A stretch of DNA of 64,000 bases from Streptomyces aquilus (GTDB lineage Bacteria; Actinomycetota; Actinomycetes; Streptomycetales; Streptomycetaceae), in NCBI RefSeq assembly GCF_003955715.1, contig NZ_CP034463.1, positions 3,224,001 through 3,288,000 of the forward strand, read 5' to 3'. The notes below the pieces were generated by a model, which saw nothing but the letters and a program-made list of their open reading frames with translations, was not told the DNA's origin and did not search any database. Positions within the stretch are counted from its first letter, which is position 1, and each line of letters opens with the position of its first letter. Made by a program: the position numbers and the translations under genes. This document shows, piece by piece, positions 56,855-64,000 of the stretch.

Positions 56855-58141
56855 GTGGAGTCGTCCCGTGCGATCACCCCCGGCCTCGACGAGCTCGCCG
56901 GCTTCCTCACCCGGCTGACCCGGCTGCTGCTGAACACCAGCGGCGAGGGGGCGGAGGGCATCGAGGAGGCGGTGACGACGACGGCCAGGGCGCTGGGCGG
57001 CGAGGCGTCGCTGCTCCTCGTCCCGGACACGGCGACGCTCACGGTCACCGCCGCGGACGGCGCCGCGCGGACCGTCATCGTGCGGGGCGTTCCGGAGGTC
57101 TTCCGGCTGGACCAGGTCACCGCGCTGAAGCCGCTGCTGGCGGACGTGCGGGCCGGTCGTACGGACGTGACGCGGGCGGGCGCGCGGCTGGCGGCGATCG
57201 AGGAGTCGGGGCCGCCGTATCCCTGGTGGGCGAAGCTCATCGGCATCGTGCTGTTCGCGCTGGGGTTCGCGCCGCTGATGCAGTCGACCTCGTACGAGGT
57301 GGCGAGCACGGCGGTGCTCGCCACGATCGCGGCGAGTCTGGCGGTCGTCGCGGACCGTGTGCCGCGCCTCGCGGCCGTCCTGCCGCTGGTCGCCGCCACG
57401 GTGATCTCGATCGTCACGATCGAGGTGTTCGCCCGCACCCCCTCCCACGGCGGTCCGGTCCTGCTGATGCTCCCGGCGCTCTTCTACTTCGTGCCCGGCG
57501 ACTACCTGAGCGCGGCGACGGCCGAGCCGGCCGCCGGGTGGATGACGACCGGCGCGATCCGCCTGGTCAACTCGGTTTTCCTGCTCGTGCAGTTGTATCT
57601 CGGCGTCCTGCTGGGCGTGTACGCGACGGGCACCTCCACCCGCGCCCTCTTCGACGTCGCCGCGGACGCCGATCTGCCGCGCTGGGCGCTGTTCCTGTCG
57701 TGGATCGTGTTCACCGTCGGCACCGTGCTCGCGTTCGCGGTGCCGTACCGCCTTTTCTGGCCACTTCTGGCACTGGTGTACCTGACGGTCGCGGTGCAGT
57801 CGCTGGTCACCAAGCTGATCGGCGAGACGGGCGGCACGTTCGTGGCCGCGGTGGTGCTGACGGCGACGGCCACGGTGCTGGCCCGGGCCCCGCGGCGGCC
57901 GCCCCGGCTGGTGCTCCTCCTGCCCGGATTCTTCACGCTGACCGTGGGTTCTCTGGGCATGCGGGGGCTGACGACATGGGCGGGCGGCTATGTCATCAAG
58001 GGCTTCGAGGACTTGCTGAAGCTGGTGACGGTCGTGACGGCGATCGCGGTGCATGGTGGTCGGCGCGACGCTCGTGCGCCGCGAGTGACCCCCCTCGCCC
58101 CCTCCCCCTCTTACCTGCTTCTTACCTGCTCAGAGCGCTGA
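56855..58141 (+). CDS. thrE: ThrE-family threonine/serine exporter
   Basis: A 428-residue membrane protein of the ThrE/YjjP-YjjB (DUF1212/DUF3815) family. The soluble N-terminal part (LDELAGFLTRLTRLLLNTSGEGAEGIEEAV) is followed by about ten helices in two blocks. Conserved features include FALGFAPLMQSTSYEVAST and MLPALFYFVPGDYLSAATAE (the P-G family motif). It exports threonine or serine by proton motive force. The GTG start has GGAGGAGG six bases upstream. The nearby seryl-tRNA synthetase and permease make serine handling a recurrent theme, though this gene faces away from that cluster. Confidence 0.82.
   Translation: MESSRAITPGLDELAGFLTRLTRLLLNTSGEGAEGIEEAVTTTARALGGEASLLLVPDTATLTVTAADGAARTVIVRGVPEVFRLDQVTALKPLLADVRAGRTDVTRAGARLAAIEESGPPYPWWAKLIGIVLFALGFAPLMQSTSYEVASTAVLATIAASLAVVADRVPRLAAVLPLVAATVISIVTIEVFARTPSHGGPVLLMLPALFYFVPGDYLSAATAEPAAGWMTTGAIRLVNSVFLLVQLYLGVLLGVYATGTSTRALFDVAADADLPRWALFLSWIVFTVGTVLAFAVPYRLFWPLLALVYLTVAVQSLVTKLIGETGGTFVAAVVLTATATVLARAPRRPPRLVLLLPGFFTLTVGSLGMRGLTTWAGGYVIKGFEDLLKLVTVVTAIAVHGGRRDARAPRVTPLAPSPSYLLLTCSER
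58110..58131 (+). promoter_or_regulatory. 11-bp tandem repeat upstream of the SARP gene
   Basis: CTTACCTGCTT is immediately followed by CTTACCTGCTC, i.e. two copies at exactly 11-base spacing, with a hint of a third (CTCCCCCTCTT) to the left. SARP activators bind direct repeats spaced by 11 bases (one DNA turn). The repeat lies within the last codons of the thrE-like gene, 130 bases before the SARP start, so it may be autoregulatory. It is off the usual TCGAG-like heptamer, so the reading is tentative. Confidence 0.45.
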
Positions 58142-58197
58142 AGAGCACCCCTCCGGCATCGAGTCGAACTCCAGAGCGGGCCTGCACACTTCTAGCC

Positions 58198-58278
58198 ATG
58201 GCAGAACAAACGCCGGGAGTCAGAGAAGATCCAATATTAGTCCCATACGGGGGTTTCTCATGCGGTTCCGCATCCTAG
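58198..58278 (+). CDS. Short TTA-containing upstream ORF overlapping the SARP start
   Basis: An ATG opens a 26-codon frame ending in TAG inside the SARP coding region; the peptide ends YGGFSCGSAS. Codon 14 is TTA, the rare leucine codon read by the bldA tRNA. No ribosome-binding site is obvious before its ATG, but the SARP ATG lies within this frame, 19 bases before its stop. It could be a regulatory uORF that makes SARP translation bldA-dependent, or chance. A tiny peptide product with Ser/Cys at its end is another possibility. Confidence 0.35.
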   Translation: MAEQTPGVREDPILVPYGGFSCGSAS

Positions 58279-59051
58279 GCACGATCGCCGTGGGCGACCA
58301 CGGCGCGTTCCACACCGTCCCGGGACTCCGGCAGCGTTCGCTGCTGGCGAGCCTGCTCATCCAGGCCCCGGCCGTCGTCCCGGTCTCGACGCTGTACAGC
58401 GAGCTGTGGGGGGAGAACCCCCCGGCCACCGTCGAGAACGCGCTCCAGGCCCATGTGTCCCGGCTGCGCCGCACCCTCGCGCAGCTCGCCGGCAAGTCGG
58501 CCGCGGGCGCGCTGCTCAGCCGGACCTCCGGCTACAGCCTGGACGTGGCGCCGGAGGACATCGACCTCAACCTGTTCCGCACGTACATCCGCGAGGCCCA
58601 CCGGGCGATGGCGGACGCCGATCTGTGCACCGCACAGAAGCAGCTGGAGGAAGGCCTGCGGCTCTGGCAGGGCCGCCCGCTGGGAGACGCGGCCCTCGGA
58701 CCGCTCTGCCAGAGCGCGGTCACCGAGTGGGAGGAGGAGCATCTGTCCGCGCAGGAGGACCTCCTGTGGCTGCGGATCCGTGCGGGCGAACCGATGGGCG
58801 CGGTGGGCGAGTTGAAACGGATGAGCATCACCCACCCGTGGCGGGAACGGATCACCGAGCTGCTCATGCTGGCGCTCTACCAGAGCGGCCGGCAGGCCGA
58901 GGCGATCACCGTCTACAACGCGGCCCGGCTGCGGCTCGACGACGAGCTGGGGATGGAGCCGTCCCCGAAGCTGCGTCTGCTGTTCCAGCAGATGCTCAAC
59001 CAGGACCCCGCGCTGCACGGCACCGGTACCTTCCTGCGCCAGCCCGCCTGA
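58260..59051 (+). CDS. Small SARP-family pathway regulator
   Basis: A 263-residue Streptomyces antibiotic regulatory protein: an OmpR-type winged helix (residues ~1-95, NALQAHVSRLRRTLAQLAG) followed by the BTAD helical domain (~95-245, DIDLNLFRTYIREAHRAMAD; LDDELGMEPSPKLRLLFQQM). Without NTPase or TPR domains it is the compact type that activates one biosynthetic cluster, as ActII-ORF4 and VlmI do. GGGGG precedes the ATG. It faces, tail to tail, the SerRS/permease/KAS genes, so it is the natural candidate for their activator. The 11-bp tandem repeat and the TTA-bearing short ORF lie upstream. Confidence 0.9.
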   Translation: MRFRILGTIAVGDHGAFHTVPGLRQRSLLASLLIQAPAVVPVSTLYSELWGENPPATVENALQAHVSRLRRTLAQLAGKSAAGALLSRTSGYSLDVAPEDIDLNLFRTYIREAHRAMADADLCTAQKQLEEGLRLWQGRPLGDAALGPLCQSAVTEWEEEHLSAQEDLLWLRIRAGEPMGAVGELKRMSITHPWRERITELLMLALYQSGRQAEAITVYNAARLRLDDELGMEPSPKLRLLFQQMLNQDPALHGTGTFLRQPA

Positions 59052-59088
59052 CCCGCACCCGCCTGACCCGCACCCGTCGGTGGCCGGC

Positions 59089-60384
59089 CTACTCGGTGGC
59101 ACCGCCGGGTAGCAGTCGGCGGAAGCCGATGTAGGGCGTCAGCGCTTCCGGCAGCAGGACCGAGCCGTCCGGCTGCTGTCCCTGTTCCAGCAGGGCGGCG
59201 ACGGTCCGCCCGATCGGCAGACCGGAGCCGTTGAGCGTGGCGGCGATGCGCCGGGCGCCGCCCGCCCGGTGGCGGATGCCCGCCCGACGGGCCTGGAAGG
59301 TGCCGCAGTCCGACACCGAGGAGATCTCCCGGTAGGTGTCGCTGCCTGGCAGCCACACCTCGACGTCGTAGGTCCGGCGGGCCGAGAACCCGATGTCCCC
59401 GGCCGGCAACAGCACGACCCGGTACGACAGTTCCAGCCGCCGCAAGCACTCCTCGACGTGGCCGAGCATCAGCTCCAGCTGCTCCCCCGCGTCCTCCTCC
59501 CGGCAGACCCGCACGAGCTCCACCTTCTCGAACTGGTGCAGCCGCAGCACGCCCCGCGTGTCGCGGCCGTACGAGCCCGCCTCCGCGCGGTAGCAGGGGG
59601 TGCGGGCGGTCATCGCCAGCGGCAGCGCGCGCTCGTCGAGCAGCTCCCGCGCCACGAGGTTCGTCAGCGGAACCTCGGCGGTCGGGATCAGGAACATCTC
59701 CCGGCCGCCGACCGAGGTGGCGAACAGCTCCTCCTCGAACTTGGGCAGCTGTCCGGTGCCGGTCATCGTCTCCCGGCTGACCAGGTGCGGCACCGCGTAC
59801 TCGGTGTATCCGTGCTCCCGGGTGTGCAGGTCGAGGAGGAGGGAGGCCAGGGCCCGTTCCAGGACGGCACCGGGACCCCGGCTGACGCTGAAGCGCGCCC
59901 CGGACAGTTTCGCCGCCGCGCCCGCGTCCAACACGCCCAGCCGCTCGCCGAGTTCGGCGTGGTGCCGGCCGAGGCCGGGGCCCGAGCCGCGCTGCGGGCC
60001 GACCCGGCGTACCTCCAGCGCCTCCTTCTCGCCGAAGCCGTCGGGCAGGTCGTCCGCCGGCAGGTTCGGCACCGTCAACAGCATTGCCTTAAGGGCTTGT
60101 TCGGCGTCCCTGGCCTCGGCCTCGGCAGCCTGCACCCGCGCCCGCAGCCGCCGGCTCCGCTCCCGTGCCTCCTCCGCGCCCTCCGCGCCCTCCGCGCCGG
60201 GCGCCCCGTGCGGGCCGCGGGAGGCCTTCTTCATCTCGGCCCGCAGCCCGCTCACCGCCTCCTGCGCGCCGGCGCGCCGCGTCTGCGCGGCCCGCAGGGC
60301 GTCGAGGTCGAGCAGATAGCCACGCCGGGCGAGCCGCCGTTCCGCCTCCGCCCCGCTCTCGATCAACTCGCGTACGTCATGCAT
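59089..60384 (-). CDS. serS: Seryl-tRNA synthetase, cluster-associated paralogue
   Basis: A 431-residue class II seryl-tRNA synthetase. The N-terminal coiled-coil tRNA-binding arm (about residues 20-110) is followed by the catalytic core: motif 2 TPCYRAEAGSYGRDTRGVLR, HQFEKVELVRV, and motif 3 NGSGLPIGRTVAALLE. The loop usually reading EISSCSN-x-x-DFQARR is EISSVSDCGTFQARR, so it diverges from housekeeping SerRS. GGAGGG precedes the ATG. It lies in a run with permease, KAS II, ACP and KAS III genes. It might charge tRNA-Ser for a serine-donating biosynthetic step (as VlmL does for valanimycin) or protect against a SerRS inhibitor. Confidence 0.93.
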   Translation of the reverse strand: MHDVRELIESGAEAERRLARRGYLLDLDALRAAQTRRAGAQEAVSGLRAEMKKASRGPHGAPGAEGAEGAEEARERSRRLRARVQAAEAEARDAEQALKAMLLTVPNLPADDLPDGFGEKEALEVRRVGPQRGSGPGLGRHHAELGERLGVLDAGAAAKLSGARFSVSRGPGAVLERALASLLLDLHTREHGYTEYAVPHLVSRETMTGTGQLPKFEEELFATSVGGREMFLIPTAEVPLTNLVARELLDERALPLAMTARTPCYRAEAGSYGRDTRGVLRLHQFEKVELVRVCREEDAGEQLELMLGHVEECLRRLELSYRVVLLPAGDIGFSARRTYDVEVWLPGSDTYREISSVSDCGTFQARRAGIRHRAGGARRIAATLNGSGLPIGRTVAALLEQGQQPDGSVLLPEALTPYIGFRRLLPGGATE

Positions 60385-60453
60385 GTCGTTCCCTCCGGGT
60401 CGCGTGGACGGCGGTTGCGGTGCGGGATGTCGCGGCCGAGCCGCGTGAACCGG

Positions 60454-61956
60454 TCAGGCCGCTTCCGTGACCGTCGTGGGGGTGTGCGGTTCCGCCACTG
60501 GGGTGGGGGAACCGTCCGGGGCGGGGGCGATGTGGGTGGTGGCCAGGGCGCGGTAGCGGGCGGGGGCGACGGCACGCAGCCGCAGCGCCCACAGCGCGCC
60601 CAGCACGCCCACCGCCGGGATCACCCAGGGCAGTTGGACGACGATGCCGCCGGTCGCGCCGGTCAGCACGTCGAAGTTGCCGACCACGAGATACACCGTG
60701 GCGGCCAGGCCGGCGAAGCCCAGCAGCGGCGCGACCGTGCCGGTCCACCCCAGCCGGACGCCCTTGCGGCGCAGGGCGAGCGTGGAGAGCGCGGCCAGCG
60801 CCTGGAGGACGATGATCCCCAGGGTGCCGAGGCCCAGCATGCTGGTGGTCAGGTTGGCGTACGGGTCGAGGCCGGCGAGCGCGAACACCGTCACGGCGAC
60901 CGCGCTCACGACCACCTGGAGGACGCTCGCGAGGTGCGGGGAGCCGTGCCGGGGGTGCAGCCTGCCCAGGGCGGCGGGCAGCAGCTTGTCGTCGGCCAGC
61001 ACCTGGGAGTACCGGTTGGCGGCGCTGTGCAGGGCGAGGGTCGCGGCGAACAGGCTGGAGCAGAGCATGATCTGGAGGAGCGTGCTGCCGGCCGAGCCCA
61101 GGTAGTCGTCGCCGAGGACGAAGAAGAGGTCGCCGAGGTGCGTCCCGGCGGTCTCCCGCACCCGGCCCGCGCCGATCGCGCCGACCGCGGCCCAGCTGGT
61201 CAGGGCGTAGAACCCGGAGATCAGCACGGCGGCGGCGTAGGTGGCGCGCGGCACGCTGCGGCGCGGGTCGCGCGCCTCCTTGCCGTAGAGGGCGGCCGAC
61301 TCGAAGCCGATGAAGGACACGAAGGCGAACATCAGCGAGACGCCGACGCCGGGGCCGGTGGCGGCGTGCCAGGAGAACGAGTCGCCGGGCAGCGCGTGCA
61401 GCCCGTGCCGGAGGAGGACGGCCACGTCCAGGGCGGCGAGGATGCCGATCTCGGCGACCATCAGGACCGCGAGGACGCGGGCGCTGACGGCGATGTCCCG
61501 GTAGCCGAGGACGGCGACGAGCGCCAGGACGATCGCGCAGCACCACTGCCACGACACGGTGATCCCGTGGTCGGCGAGCACCAGGCTGGTGAAGTAGCCG
61601 GAGGCGCCGACCAGTCCGATGGTCGCGCAGTTGTAGGAGACGACCGCCACCCAGCCGCTGCCGACCGCGGCGGGCCGGCCGAGGCCGTCGGCGACGGAGG
61701 CGTAGAAGCCTCCGGAGCCGCCGGTGCGGCGGGCGCTGATCGCGTACCCGACGGAGAAGCAGACCAGGGTGACGCCGGCGAAGACGAACGCGGCCGGTAC
61801 GCCCTCGGCCGTGCCGATGGCGAACGCCAGGGGGACGGTGCCGACCATCGCGGAGAGCGGGGCCGCCGCGGCGACGATCATGAAGACGATGTAGCTGGTG
61901 GTCAGGGTGCGGGTGGGGGCCGGGGAGGAAGAGGAGGATGGTGGTCCGGCGGTCAT
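60454..61956 (-). CDS. APC-family amino-acid permease
   Basis: A 500-residue, 12-helix amino acid-polyamine-organocation transporter. The first helix pair (IVFMIVAAAAPLSAMVGTVP) holds the unwound substrate-binding segment. Later motifs include GGSGGFYASVADGLG and SFIGFESAALYGKEARDPRRSVPRA, the conserved F-x-G-F-E-x-x-x-x-x-x-E-E/A-x-x-P-x-R loop. It takes up or exchanges an amino acid or amine. AGGAG precedes the ATG. Inside the presumed cluster it may supply the serine or amine precursor; the direction is not determined. Confidence 0.88.
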   Translation of the reverse strand: MTAGPPSSSSSPAPTRTLTTSYIVFMIVAAAAPLSAMVGTVPLAFAIGTAEGVPAAFVFAGVTLVCFSVGYAISARRTGGSGGFYASVADGLGRPAAVGSGWVAVVSYNCATIGLVGASGYFTSLVLADHGITVSWQWCCAIVLALVAVLGYRDIAVSARVLAVLMVAEIGILAALDVAVLLRHGLHALPGDSFSWHAATGPGVGVSLMFAFVSFIGFESAALYGKEARDPRRSVPRATYAAAVLISGFYALTSWAAVGAIGAGRVRETAGTHLGDLFFVLGDDYLGSAGSTLLQIMLCSSLFAATLALHSAANRYSQVLADDKLLPAALGRLHPRHGSPHLASVLQVVVSAVAVTVFALAGLDPYANLTTSMLGLGTLGIIVLQALAALSTLALRRKGVRLGWTGTVAPLLGFAGLAATVYLVVGNFDVLTGATGGIVVQLPWVIPAVGVLGALWALRLRAVAPARYRALATTHIAPAPDGSPTPVAEPHTPTTVTEAA

Positions 61957-62012
61957 CGCGGGCTCCTGGGGAGGGAGTTGAGGGGACGGGAGGACGGGGG
62001 GTGGCGGACGGT

Positions 62013-63230
62013 TCAGGCGGTAGCCAGGGCCAGCACCGCGTTCTGGCCGCCGAAGCCCAGGGAATTGCTCAGGGCCAGGTCGAAGCGGGTGCCGGTGAGC
62101 GTGGCGGCGACCTTGATCTCGCAGTCGGGGTCGGGGGTGTCGAGGTTGGCGGTCGGCGGCACGGTCTGTTCCTGGAGGGCGAGCACCGTGAACGCGGCCT
62201 CCACCGCGCCGGCCGCGCCCAGCAGATGACCGGTGACGCCCTTGGTGGAGGTGACCAGCGGGTCGCCGAGGACGCGGTGCACGACCCTGGCCTCGGCGAG
62301 GTCGTTGAGCCGGGTCGCCGTGCCGTGCGCGTTGACGTGTCCGACGTCCGAGGCCTGCGCCCCGGCGTCGGCCAGCGCGCCGCGCATCGCCGCCTCCAGG
62401 CCCACGCCGTCGGGGTGCGGGGAGGTGACGTGGTGGGCGTCGGCGGAGGCGCCGTACCCGGTCACCCGGGCGCGGACCCGGGCGCCGCGGGCCCGGGCGT
62501 CGGCGGGCCGCTCCAGGACCAGCACCCCGGCGCCCTCGCCGGCCACGAACCCGTCGCGGTCCAGGTCGAACGGGCGGGAGGCGGCGGCCGGGTCGTCGGT
62601 GCGCCGGGACAGCGTGCCCATGCGGGCGAAGCCGGCCATCACCAGGGGCGTGATCATGGCCTCGCTGCCGCCGGCCAGCACCACGTCGCACCGGTCGAGG
62701 AGCAGCAGGTCGCGGGCGGTGCCGATGGCGGTCGTACCGGAGGCGCAGGCGGTGGCCACCACCAGGTTCGGGCCGGTGGCGCCGAACTCGATGGCGGTCT
62801 GCCCGGCCAGCATGTTGGGCAGCTGCATCGGCAGCAGCAGCGGGGAGACCCGGTCCGGCGAGTGCTCCACCAGCGTCCGGTGCTGTGCCTCGACCGTGCC
62901 GGGGCCGCCGTCGGCGCAGCCGAGGACGACACCGACGCGGGCGCCGTCCCAGGTGGCGGGGTCGAGGCCGGCGTCGGCGAGTGCCTCGCGGGCCGCGACG
63001 AGCGCGAACTGGCTGAAGCGGTCGAGGCGGTGGGCCCGGCGGGCGCCGAGCAGGGTGTCGGCGTCCCAGTCGGGCACCCGGCAGGAGATCCGGACGGGGT
63101 TGTCGGCGAGTACGGGGTCGTAGGCCGCGGCCGGGCGCCCGGCGCGGACGCCCGACCAGCTCGCGGCCGTCCCGATCCCGGCCGGGGTGACCAGGCCGAG
63201 ACCGGTGACGGCGATGTCGTGTGCGGCCAT
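62013..63230 (-). CDS. Beta-ketoacyl-ACP synthase II (KAS II/FabF-like), cluster-associated
   Basis: A 405-residue thiolase-fold condensing enzyme. The Cys-His-His triad is complete: Cys162 in VATACASGTTAIG, His in VNAHGTATRLND, and His in STKGVTGHLLGAAGAVEA. The chain ends with NSLGFGGQNAVLALA. It condenses malonyl-ACP onto an acyl-ACP to lengthen a fatty or polyketide chain. It is not a chain-length factor, since the active-site cysteine is retained. The ATG overlaps the ACP stop (TGATG), so the two are translationally coupled. RedR of prodiginine clusters is a functional analogue. Confidence 0.93.
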   Translation of the reverse strand: MAAHDIAVTGLGLVTPAGIGTAASWSGVRAGRPAAAYDPVLADNPVRISCRVPDWDADTLLGARRAHRLDRFSQFALVAAREALADAGLDPATWDGARVGVVLGCADGGPGTVEAQHRTLVEHSPDRVSPLLLPMQLPNMLAGQTAIEFGATGPNLVVATACASGTTAIGTARDLLLLDRCDVVLAGGSEAMITPLVMAGFARMGTLSRRTDDPAAASRPFDLDRDGFVAGEGAGVLVLERPADARARGARVRARVTGYGASADAHHVTSPHPDGVGLEAAMRGALADAGAQASDVGHVNAHGTATRLNDLAEARVVHRVLGDPLVTSTKGVTGHLLGAAGAVEAAFTVLALQEQTVPPTANLDTPDPDCEIKVAATLTGTRFDLALSNSLGFGGQNAVLALATA

Positions 63231-63460
63231 CACACCCGCGCGCTCCGCGACTCGATGAGCTCGACCATCTCGCCGACGGTGTGCGTGTCCAGGAGTTCGT
63301 CGTCGGAGACGGACACCCCGAGTTCCGTCTCCAGGACGAGGGACAGCTCGACGACGGCCAGCGAGTCCAGCTCGATGTCCTCGAAGGTGGCGTCGAGGGT
63401 GATCTGCTCGGGGGTGACCTTGAGCTTGTTGACGAGTATTTCCTTCAGGCTCTCGAACAT
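63230..63460 (-). CDS. Acyl carrier protein, cluster-associated
   Basis: A 76-residue acidic ACP. Ser33 in DIELDSLAVVELSLVLE (the D-S-L motif) is the 4'-phosphopantetheine attachment site. The four-helix pattern and charge fit type II FAS/PKS carriers. It lies between the KAS III and KAS II genes and overlaps the KAS II start. It is presumably the dedicated carrier for the acyl chain built by this cluster, separate from the primary fatty-acid ACP. Confidence 0.95.
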   Translation of the reverse strand: MFESLKEILVNKLKVTPEQITLDATFEDIELDSLAVVELSLVLETELGVSVSDDELLDTHTVGEMVELIESRSARV

Positions 63461-63509
63461 GGGTGATCGACCTCCGGTTGACGGTGTGGGTGGGTGGGCA
63501 CGGGCCCGG

Positions 63510-64000
63510 TCACAGCTCGGGCCAGGTGAGGGTGGCCGCGCCCCAGGCGAGGCCGCCGCCGAACGCGGTCAGCAGGACCCGGTCGCCGGCCTTCAGCTCG
63601 CCGTCGGCCGACTTCTGGGCCAGCAGCAGCGGGATGGAGGCGCCGCCGGTGTTGCCGACGTGCTCGATGTTGGACAGCCGCCGCTCGGGTCCGATGCCGA
63701 GCCGTTCGGCGACGGCTTCGAGGATGCGGGCGTTGGCCTGGTGGGAGGCGAACCGGTCGACGTCCTCGGGGGCCCAGCCGGTGCCGGCGAGGGACTGTCG
63801 CGCGGCCGCGGTCATGCGTTCCACGGCGTGCCGGTAGGTGGCGCGCCCGGCCATGTGGAAGTACTCGTCGCCGGGCTCGGGCGGCAGTCCCGTGGAACGC
63901 TGGCGCGAGCCGCCGGCCGGGACCGAGATGAGGTCGCTGAGCTCGCCGTCGCTGCCGAGCACGACGGAGTTGAGCGCGCCGGGCTCGTCCGCGTCGCCGG
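63510..64000 (-). CDS. Beta-ketoacyl-ACP synthase III (FabH-like), partial at the right edge
   Basis: The last ~163 codons are present; the 5' part lies beyond the window. The C-terminal catalytic residues are visible: His in DRFASHQANARILEAVAERL and Asn in NIEHVGNTGGASIPLLLA. The protein ends LTAFGGGLAWGAATLTWPEL, as in FabH-type enzymes. KAS III starts a chain by condensing a short acyl-CoA with malonyl-ACP. With the ACP and KAS II it forms a RedP/RedQ/RedR-like initiation and elongation set. The substrate (acetyl-, branched-chain or other acyl-CoA) cannot be told from this part. Confidence 0.92.
   Translation of the reverse strand, partial: GDADEPGALNSVVLGSDGELSDLISVPAGGSRQRSTGLPPEPGDEYFHMAGRATYRHAVERMTAAARQSLAGTGWAPEDVDRFASHQANARILEAVAERLGIGPERRLSNIEHVGNTGGASIPLLLAQKSADGELKAGDRVLLTAFGGGLAWGAATLTWPEL

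Follow-up and report, generated by a model that had tools for sequence, protein, structure and literature searches.

How would a Streptomyces cell supply serine to an aliphatic azoxy pathway, and why should the genes of such a pathway include a seryl-tRNA synthetase (SerRS) of their own? The question is raised by the end of a stretch of Streptomyces aquilus DNA of 64,000 nucleotides (contig NZ_CP034463.1, positions 3,224,001 to 3,288,000 of the forward strand; hereafter the window) and by the sequence that follows it. The first-pass annotation, made from the window alone, had proposed that a cluster starting there joins an acyl- or alkyl-derived unit to serine taken from Ser-tRNA, as expected for azoxy compounds. 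We followed the same contig (10.39 Mb) beyond position 64000, continuing the window numbering such that the contig position is the window position plus 3224000. In the following 22 kb there are VlmA-, VlmB- and VlmO-like genes together with a VlmH/VlmR-like flavin pair, which bears the azoxy proposal out, and three tandem tRNA(Ser)-like RNAs lie upstream of the VlmA gene, outside the view of that annotation. Our best joint explanation, to which we give a probability of roughly three in four, is that positions 58260-86589 form a single aliphatic azoxy biosynthetic gene cluster in which these RNAs would act as serine carriers excluded from the ribosome, charged by SerRS and used by VlmA. The protein cluster is a further example of an already known azoxy cluster kind, and the RNA looks new: no report of it was found in the literature searched, in the main text of PMC9379638 or in the available part of PMC11705231, a search whose scope left subscription azoxy papers aside.

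The three RNAs (84892-84978, 85002-85088 and 85103-85189, all on the minus strand, between the genes for a second acyl carrier protein, ACP2, and VlmA) were first noticed when the ACP2/VlmA intergenic region was aligned among three syntenic clusters, that of S. aquilus with three copies, that of S. geranii with two and that of Actinacidiphila guanduensis with one. The acceptor stem, G73, the D arm, the T arm and the long variable arm are intact; in the place of a normal anticodon arm the RNAs have a variable hairpin, whose small loop holds no anticodon. The cluster copies fold as class II tRNAs with z-scores of -3.1, -2.6 and -2.7 against shuffled sequences, and the ten elements folded gave values from -1.95 to -5.39. 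In an alignment of 37 elements, from which 17 of 54 were left out by hand as near-copies or partial calls, hardly any variation is seen in the acceptor, D and T arms, and the anticodon and variable arms vary with compensation. In this alignment 97.2% of 970 cells were paired and 10 of the 27 pairs had changed on both sides, neither value being reached by any of 500 shuffles, and slid-structure controls paired in 36-60% of cells. RNAalifold, run without a supplied structure, recovered the same five arms with 26 pairs.

The elements resemble ordinary tRNA(Ser) in the class II cloverleaf, the long variable arm, G1-C72, G2-C71 and G73 and differ from it in lacking an anticodon. The predicted loop of the anticodon arm has 4 nucleotides in 41, 5 in 20, 3 in 15, 8 in 2 and 7 in 1 of the 79 elements parsed, such that 76 of 79 have a loop of 3-5 nucleotides; these 79 come from 84 distinct elements (four unparsed, one with Ns dropped), drawn from 97 hits with repeats and cut-off hits excluded. 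Fifteen of the loops are GNRA and six UNCG tetraloops, those of the three S. aquilus copies being GCTC, GTGA and GCAA, and the only 7-nucleotide loop with a U33 (in locus L075; 1 of 79) would read GCG, not serine. The discriminator was G in all 83 elements read, and CCA was encoded in 18 of these. Serine identity reportedly rests mainly on the variable arm and is anticodon-independent, and G1-C72 and G2-C71 are conserved in most bacterial tRNA-Ser (PMC9976931, partial text). As the elements keep the features that SerRS reads, along with a normal tRNA elbow, and have no anticodon, they would be plausible SerRS substrates unable to decode.

ARAGORN reported the three cluster copies as tRNA-??? 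and left elements elsewhere unassigned or gave them varied amino acids. The best listed Rfam match was tRNA-Sec RF01852 with 33.2, 27.8 and 25.5 bits, below its gathering score of 47; one copy reached 29.7 bits with RF00005 (gathering score 29), and the other two were unlisted for that family at E <= 0.01. No Rfam family of its own was matched by the element in this search, from which lower-scoring matches of the same clan were omitted.

We then asked how closely the RNA is tied to VlmA. With a covariance model of the element (R1), the cluster copies scored 94-100 bits, and among the 150 candidates scored in the 10.4-Mb genome the next was a tRNA-Tyr with 49.4 bits, a tRNA-Ser(GCT) reaching 37.6. 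An element lies 159-399 bp upstream of VlmA in 43 of 64 VlmA genes, and it is divergent from VlmA in 43 of 43; the 64 are those with at least 700 bp upstream among 68 genes of more than 250 aa, five fragments of at most 250 aa, cut by locus ends, having been dropped. Beside VlmA the element occurs in 1-5 tandem copies, often about 175 bp from the gene, and in S. anulatus JCM 4721 the azoxy locus has an element on either side (L052:4954-5042 and L052:19145-19233), one of them at a distance of some 14 kb from VlmA.

Were the RNA required, a genome without a linked copy would be expected to carry an unlinked one. Four of the 21 VlmA genes without an adjacent element have one elsewhere in the locus (L058, L060, L065, L100), and 13 of the 16 genomes searched for the remaining 17 (L102 was left out) carry elements of at least 70 bits elsewhere, such that, with adjacent and other copies combined, an element is present in 60 of 63 resolved VlmA cases. 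Four SerRS-bearing cases (L026, L030, L035 and L036) were newly searched on this expectation and all four have an unlinked copy; with seven other genomes included, the search was positive in 20 of 23. Unlinked copies number up to 15 per genome (15 in S. griseofuscus, 8 in S. diastatochromogenes). A divergent element was considered for L084, L085, L096 and L202 and rejected, as nothing there scored above 16.3 bits with the filters off, and an ARAGORN hit in L204, when inspected by eye, was GC-rich sequence with no resemblance to the family.

The two also go together across genomes. Among 246 genomes of the genus, 29 have the element, 50 have VlmA (E <= 1e-30) and 28 have both (Fisher p 4e-22, uncorrected for kinship). 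Some genomes of the surveys, here and in the phylum, also supplied R1 sequences and are thus not independent of the model. In the 29 genomes the nearest element is within 400 bp of VlmA in 11, within 20 kb in 21 and on the same contig in 22, and the rest have their elements on other contigs (three being fragmented drafts), plus genome G204. In G204 (L196) the distance is 2.3 kb between an element and a diverged PF09924 gene (35% identity to VlmA), which has a class III aminotransferase gene and a SARP gene as neighbours; this locus is possibly a different tRNA-dependent pathway using the same RNA family. Genome G153 has four elements on a second contig (C2, 343 kb; L191, L192) and its VlmA on the 8.7-Mb contig; the RNA is perhaps encoded on a plasmid and used by a cluster on the chromosome. 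In the phylum, 2 of 396 genomes have an element of at least 70 bits, both of them with VlmA, which is present in 3 of the 396. At E <= 1e-7, R1 also caught 65 of the 396 at 56-64 bits, and the four inspected were all ordinary tRNA-Ser; since the model picks up such apparent tRNA-Ser genes, 70 bits was taken as the line.

The 22 genomes of the genus with VlmA and no element comprise 13 with a VlmA of 52-58% identity, the two genomes of L085 and L096, and 7 with a VlmA of 41-44%. Eight of the 13 were looked at, and all have a compact, azodyrecin-like order of VlmO, VlmA, flavin enzyme, a further gene, aminotransferase, cyclase and flavin reductase, with no SerRS and no tRNA or tRNA-like element in 20 kb; the one checked further (L198) has a PF04072 methyltransferase and a reductase, as in azodyrecin clusters. 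Azodyrecin clusters (ady/azd) share with that of S. aquilus homologues of VlmO, VlmA, the VlmH-like enzyme, the aminotransferase and the flavin reductase, and for them Ala-tRNA was inferred as the donor and no aminoacyl-tRNA synthetase gene was reported (PMC9379638).

A tRNA gene in decay, left as the relic of an island attachment site or spread as a short repeat of tRNA origin, without function in the pathway, could also have a scrambled anticodon arm and scattered copies, both of which are seen. Copies dispersed over unrelated intergenic sites, in the manner of ordinary tRNA genes, occur in G039, G069, G182 (L159-L177), G010, G002 and G282. These were examined as parts of other clusters or mobile elements, which was rejected: the 42 nearest genes of 21 such elements share no Pfam family more than three times, and no mobile-element family appears among the 25 of 69 families listed for them. 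We consider decay quite unlikely, because through all 37 aligned rows the acceptor and T arms show little or no variation and the other helices covary, the element is nearly confined to genomes with VlmA, and, when adjacent, it is always divergent from that gene. Nor is the element a close copy of the genome's own serine tRNAs: ten class II-sized tRNA genes, picked from 76 RF00005 matches in the genome, comprise five tRNA-Ser with sound anticodons (GCT twice, TGA, CGA and GGA) and five tRNA-Leu, and the elements are 53-66% identical to these five ordinary tRNA-Ser.

The position in a divergent intergenic region, often some 175 bp from VlmA, would also suit a regulatory RNA, that is, a charging sensor, a leader or a decoy for VlmA, SerRS or the SARP protein, which carries no amino acid. 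A pseudo-tRNA within a larger regulatory RNA has been described in Bacillus cereus (PMC3399842, partial text). However, the complete acceptor stem with G73, the tandem copies, the strand opposite to VlmA and the unlinked copies suit a charged RNA acting in trans better, and we regard a regulatory function as very unlikely.

If the RNA is a serine carrier, which synthetase would charge it? The cluster SerRS (59089-60384, minus strand, 431 aa), a VlmL-like paralogue, scored 398 bits with TIGR00414 serS against a cut-off of 301.65, and has the motif 2 (YRAEAGSYGRDTRG), the motif 3 (TLNGSGLPIGRT) and the EISSVSDCG loop that had been read in it from the window. The loop is no peculiarity of this locus: of the 45 SerRS genes in related azoxy loci, 41 have it as SSVSDCG or SSCSDCG, and the remaining four went unmatched by the search pattern. 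With three SerRS genes in the genome, the cluster copy is not the sole serS, and its description as a paralogue was right. The gene at C1:5319365-5320642 has the best serS score of the three (446 bits) and appears to be the housekeeping SerRS; its identity to the cluster copy is 39%. The third (C1:4552505-4553791), with 45% identity to the cluster copy, is a solitary gene amid ordinary ones; it was considered as part of a second azoxy cluster, which was rejected on its neighbours, ordinary by eye, and on the single VlmO match genome-wide. The two further SerRS genes also bear on whether the region is an ordinary fatty-acid locus with the housekeeping serS, as the presence of KAS III (beta-ketoacyl synthase III), acyl carrier protein (ACP) and KAS II genes could suggest; together with the VlmA, VlmB and VlmO homologues and the VlmH/VlmR-like pair that follow, they rule it out, leaving it practically no probability.

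Among loci around VlmO homologues (the best 80 of 214 found), SerRS is present in 45 of the 80 named and always on the VlmO strand (45 of 45); where at least 8.5 kb is available downstream of VlmO, 43 of 68 loci have it and 25 keep VlmO without an adjacent SerRS. On a VlmA tree of 61 loci and the window, from which 7 of 68 VlmA rows were dropped as their SerRS state was unknown, SerRS presence is explained by 4 changes, a number that none of 500 shuffles (mean 18.9) was low enough to reach, with kinship inflating the difference. One could suppose that self-resistance is the main function of the cluster SerRS, or one of two, with the housekeeping enzyme inhibited by the azoxy product or a pathway intermediate and the cluster copy insensitive. 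Its divergence (39-45% identity to the other two) and the altered SSVSDCG loop would agree with this, and so would AbmK of the albomycin cluster, a natural-product-cluster SerRS said to supply activated serine as seryl-adenylate and to confer resistance, with no VlmA-like transfer described in the part of that source available (PMC9032320). We nevertheless think that resistance as the main function is unlikely: the gene is co-operonic with enzymes of a serine-using pathway, a good part of the loci (the above 25 of 68) keep VlmO without it, VlmL is described as forming seryl-tRNA for the valanimycin pathway (PMC4052509, partial text), and SerRS presence follows the VlmA tree. Supply to VlmA is thus the better reading, with resistance as a possible second role.

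Several observations weigh against the proposal that VlmA draws serine from the tRNA-like RNA. VlmA has been characterised with labelled Ser-tRNA(Ser) (PMC12945691, partial text), so a special RNA is not strictly needed. Three VlmA genomes (L084, L085 and L096) have no element of at least 70 bits. By locus, the 64 VlmA genes divide into 25 with an adjacent element and SerRS, 12 with the element only, 10 with SerRS only, 11 with neither and 6 with an element and SerRS state unknown; that is, 12 of 37 element loci of known SerRS state are without SerRS, and 10 SerRS loci are without an adjacent element, for which copies were found elsewhere. The scattered copies outside the cluster in some genomes could suggest a mobile tRNA relic, but their sequences keep the full fold. 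The structure tested for covariation was drawn from the same 37 sequences, and of the five measures of covariation that of further pair types was not above shuffles (299 of 500 as high). Finally, a scan for sigma-70-type promoters near the copies, which is weak for Streptomyces, gave no match.

The limits 58260-86589 rest on synteny of the cluster over its whole length with S. geranii A301 and A. guanduensis. At one end, the SARP-family regulator (58260-59051, plus strand, 263 aa; BTAD 129 bits, Trans_reg_C), with homologues at the matching place 74% identical in S. geranii and 70% in A. guanduensis, is convergent with the SerRS gene, with 37 bp between. It faces a minus-strand operon that runs from 71374 to 59089 with SerRS last, and the order read in the window, KAS III, ACP, KAS II, APC permease and SerRS with short spacers or overlaps, was found as described. 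Upstream of SerRS in this operon are genes for an APC-family amino acid permease (60454-61956, minus; PF13520) and for a FabF-like KAS II (62013-63233 with a GTG start, or 63230 with an ATG start, minus; PF00109/PF02801), which passed PRK07314 (448 against a cut-off of 387) and fell below TIGR03150 (462 bits against 493.75). The complete KAS II triad and the ACP Ser33 claimed in the first-pass annotation are present, the former as C/H/H motifs read by eye and the latter in a DSL motif; the ACP gene (63230-63460, minus; PF00550) overlaps that of KAS II by 1-4 bp, according to the start codon. The FabH-like KAS III gene (63510-64535, minus; PF08545/PF08541, TIGR00747 above cut-off) crosses the window end at 64000.

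Beyond that point lie a transferase, a candidate flavin pair, an aminotransferase and a thioesterase II, enzyme kinds that the first-pass annotation had suggested looking for. The VlmB homologue (64532-65512, minus) matches PDB 6d9f/8wvr, 'Putative VlmB homolog', at E 3e-119 and keeps both DExRH motifs; it is followed by a flavin reductase (65509-66123, minus; PF01613) and the VlmO homologue (66120-66680, minus), with 4-bp overlaps between VlmO and flavin reductase, flavin reductase and VlmB, and VlmB and KAS III. VlmO keeps D51, H82, H110 and D114 with identical numbering, residues reported as essential for VlmO (PMC11705231, partial text) and invariant in 23 of 23 aligned sequences (the query and 22 hand-picked from 120 hits listed). 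The operon begins with an aldehyde dehydrogenase (69773-71374, minus; PF00171), an acyl-CoA-dehydrogenase-fold, VlmH-type flavin enzyme (68580-69719, minus; PF02771, closest solved relative DszC), a class III aminotransferase (67283-68566, minus; PF00202, closest solved relative putrescine aminotransferase) and an SRPBCC protein (66807-67280, minus; PF03364). The flavin pair is a putative VlmH/VlmR-type N-hydroxylase, assigned by matching families and place; VlmH belongs among the acyl-CoA-dehydrogenase-fold monooxygenases.

Next come an MFS exporter (71751-73214, plus), a weak SnoaL-like gene (73337-74038, plus), an MmyB-like regulator (74184-75050, plus) and, all on the minus strand, a second SnoaL-like gene (75064-75474), a thioesterase II (75528-76310), an AMP ligase (76351-77910), a type I polyketide synthase (PKS) with the domains KS-AT-DH-ER-KR-ACP (78040-84324) and ACP2 (84359-84667). 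The VlmA homologue (85378-86382, plus) scored 220.6 bits with PF09924, the profile used for VlmA in PMC9379638, and its solved relatives are Ala- and Lys-tRNA-dependent. Directly downstream of it, a gene for a 57-aa protein (86416-86589, plus) ends the cluster. The protein has a conserved LMxxIGAPDD motif and, with a local profile built from 26 VlmA loci and the S. aquilus copy, a homologue was found within 800 bp of 61 of 68 VlmA genes; it has no Pfam or NCBIfam match, and a protein database search gave only four proteins. It is perhaps a partner of VlmA. Outside the cluster, a ThrE-family threonine/serine exporter gene (56855-58141, plus) ends 118 bp ahead of the SARP gene, and downstream, at 90663-93233, lies a GmrSD-type restriction protein with an extra alkyltransferase-like DNA-binding domain.

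How, then, would the product be made? RedP/Q/R-like KAS III/ACP/KAS II sets make dedicated acyl chains. In the pathway that we propose from the gene content, KAS III, ACP and KAS II with host reductases would build an acyl chain, which the aldehyde-dehydrogenase-type enzyme and the aminotransferase would turn into an alkylamine, and this set probably is the source of that amine. The two-component flavin enzyme would N-hydroxylate the alkylamine, VlmA would transfer serine from an aminoacylated RNA to the hydroxylamine oxygen, VlmO would rearrange the ester to a hydrazine, and VlmB would oxidise the latter to the azoxy group. The tRNA(Ser)-like RNA encoded in the cluster, in three copies in S. 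aquilus, would serve as the serine donor; once transcribed, it may be charged by the cluster SerRS or, where a cluster has none, by the housekeeping SerRS. An RNA that can be charged and cannot decode would, as we propose, keep a biosynthetic serine pool apart from translation.

The type I PKS, AMP ligase and ACP2 probably extend one of the two product halves. In four related loci (L098, L101, L102 and L103) the azoxy core is accompanied by genes for a PKS, an AMP ligase, a thioesterase II and a SnoaL-like protein, and the KAS, aldehyde dehydrogenase and aminotransferase set is missing, so the alkylamine set and the PKS/AMP-ligase module are separable. Since Pfam scans found no desaturase domain in the cluster, a saturated alkyl side would be expected, and an elaiomycin- or maniwamycin-type product, as suggested from the window, is possible.

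The protein set has clear relatives. The valanimycin cluster (vlm; VlmA, B, H, L, O, R and the SARP VlmI) shares the azoxy core of seryl-tRNA transferase, two-component N-hydroxylase (a putative one in S. aquilus), VlmO, VlmB, SerRS and SARP (PMC9379638; PMC11705231, PMC4052509 and PMC7040171, partial texts), and differs in that the S. aquilus amine seems to come from the KAS/ACP/aldehyde dehydrogenase/aminotransferase set, not from valine, and in that a type I PKS is added. Many Streptomyces loci share the run aldehyde dehydrogenase, acyl-CoA-dehydrogenase-fold enzyme, class III aminotransferase, cyclase, VlmO, flavin reductase, VlmB, KAS III, ACP, KAS II and SerRS, and SerRS and KAS III genes near some VlmA groups had already been reported (PMC9379638). 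An azoxy core with a type I PKS is also, by description, the make-up of the KA57-A (azoxyalkene) cluster of S. rochei (PMC6662830, partial text). Three related loci, those of S. griseofuscus, S. coeruleorubidus and G039, have a fatty-acid desaturase (PF00487) beside VlmA and may be of the KA57-A kind; unlike these, the S. aquilus cluster has no desaturase domain and has in addition the AMP ligase, thioesterase II and SnoaL-like genes, which it has in common with the S. geranii and A. guanduensis clusters.

For the RNA, the nearest parallels are tRNA-shaped RNAs that work outside translation, the cell-wall tRNA-Gly of staphylococci and tRNA-Other of B. cereus. The staphylococcal cell-wall tRNA-Gly keep an anticodon. 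We know of no non-translational tRNA tied to a natural-product gene cluster.

With slightly less confidence than for the S. aquilus cluster itself, we consider it likely that the serine-using azoxy pathways of actinobacteria draw on a tRNA(Ser) of their own that translation cannot use, a widespread, VlmA-linked family of RNA genes that would have lost the anticodon and kept all the parts for seryl charging and transfer. If so, this would be, to our knowledge, the first tRNA gene family to serve a natural-product pathway. It would account for ARAGORN leaving the elements unassigned or giving them varied amino acids, the covariance model would offer a genome-mining handle for azoxy and perhaps other tRNA-dependent clusters, and the RNA would be a natural orthogonal carrier for engineering.

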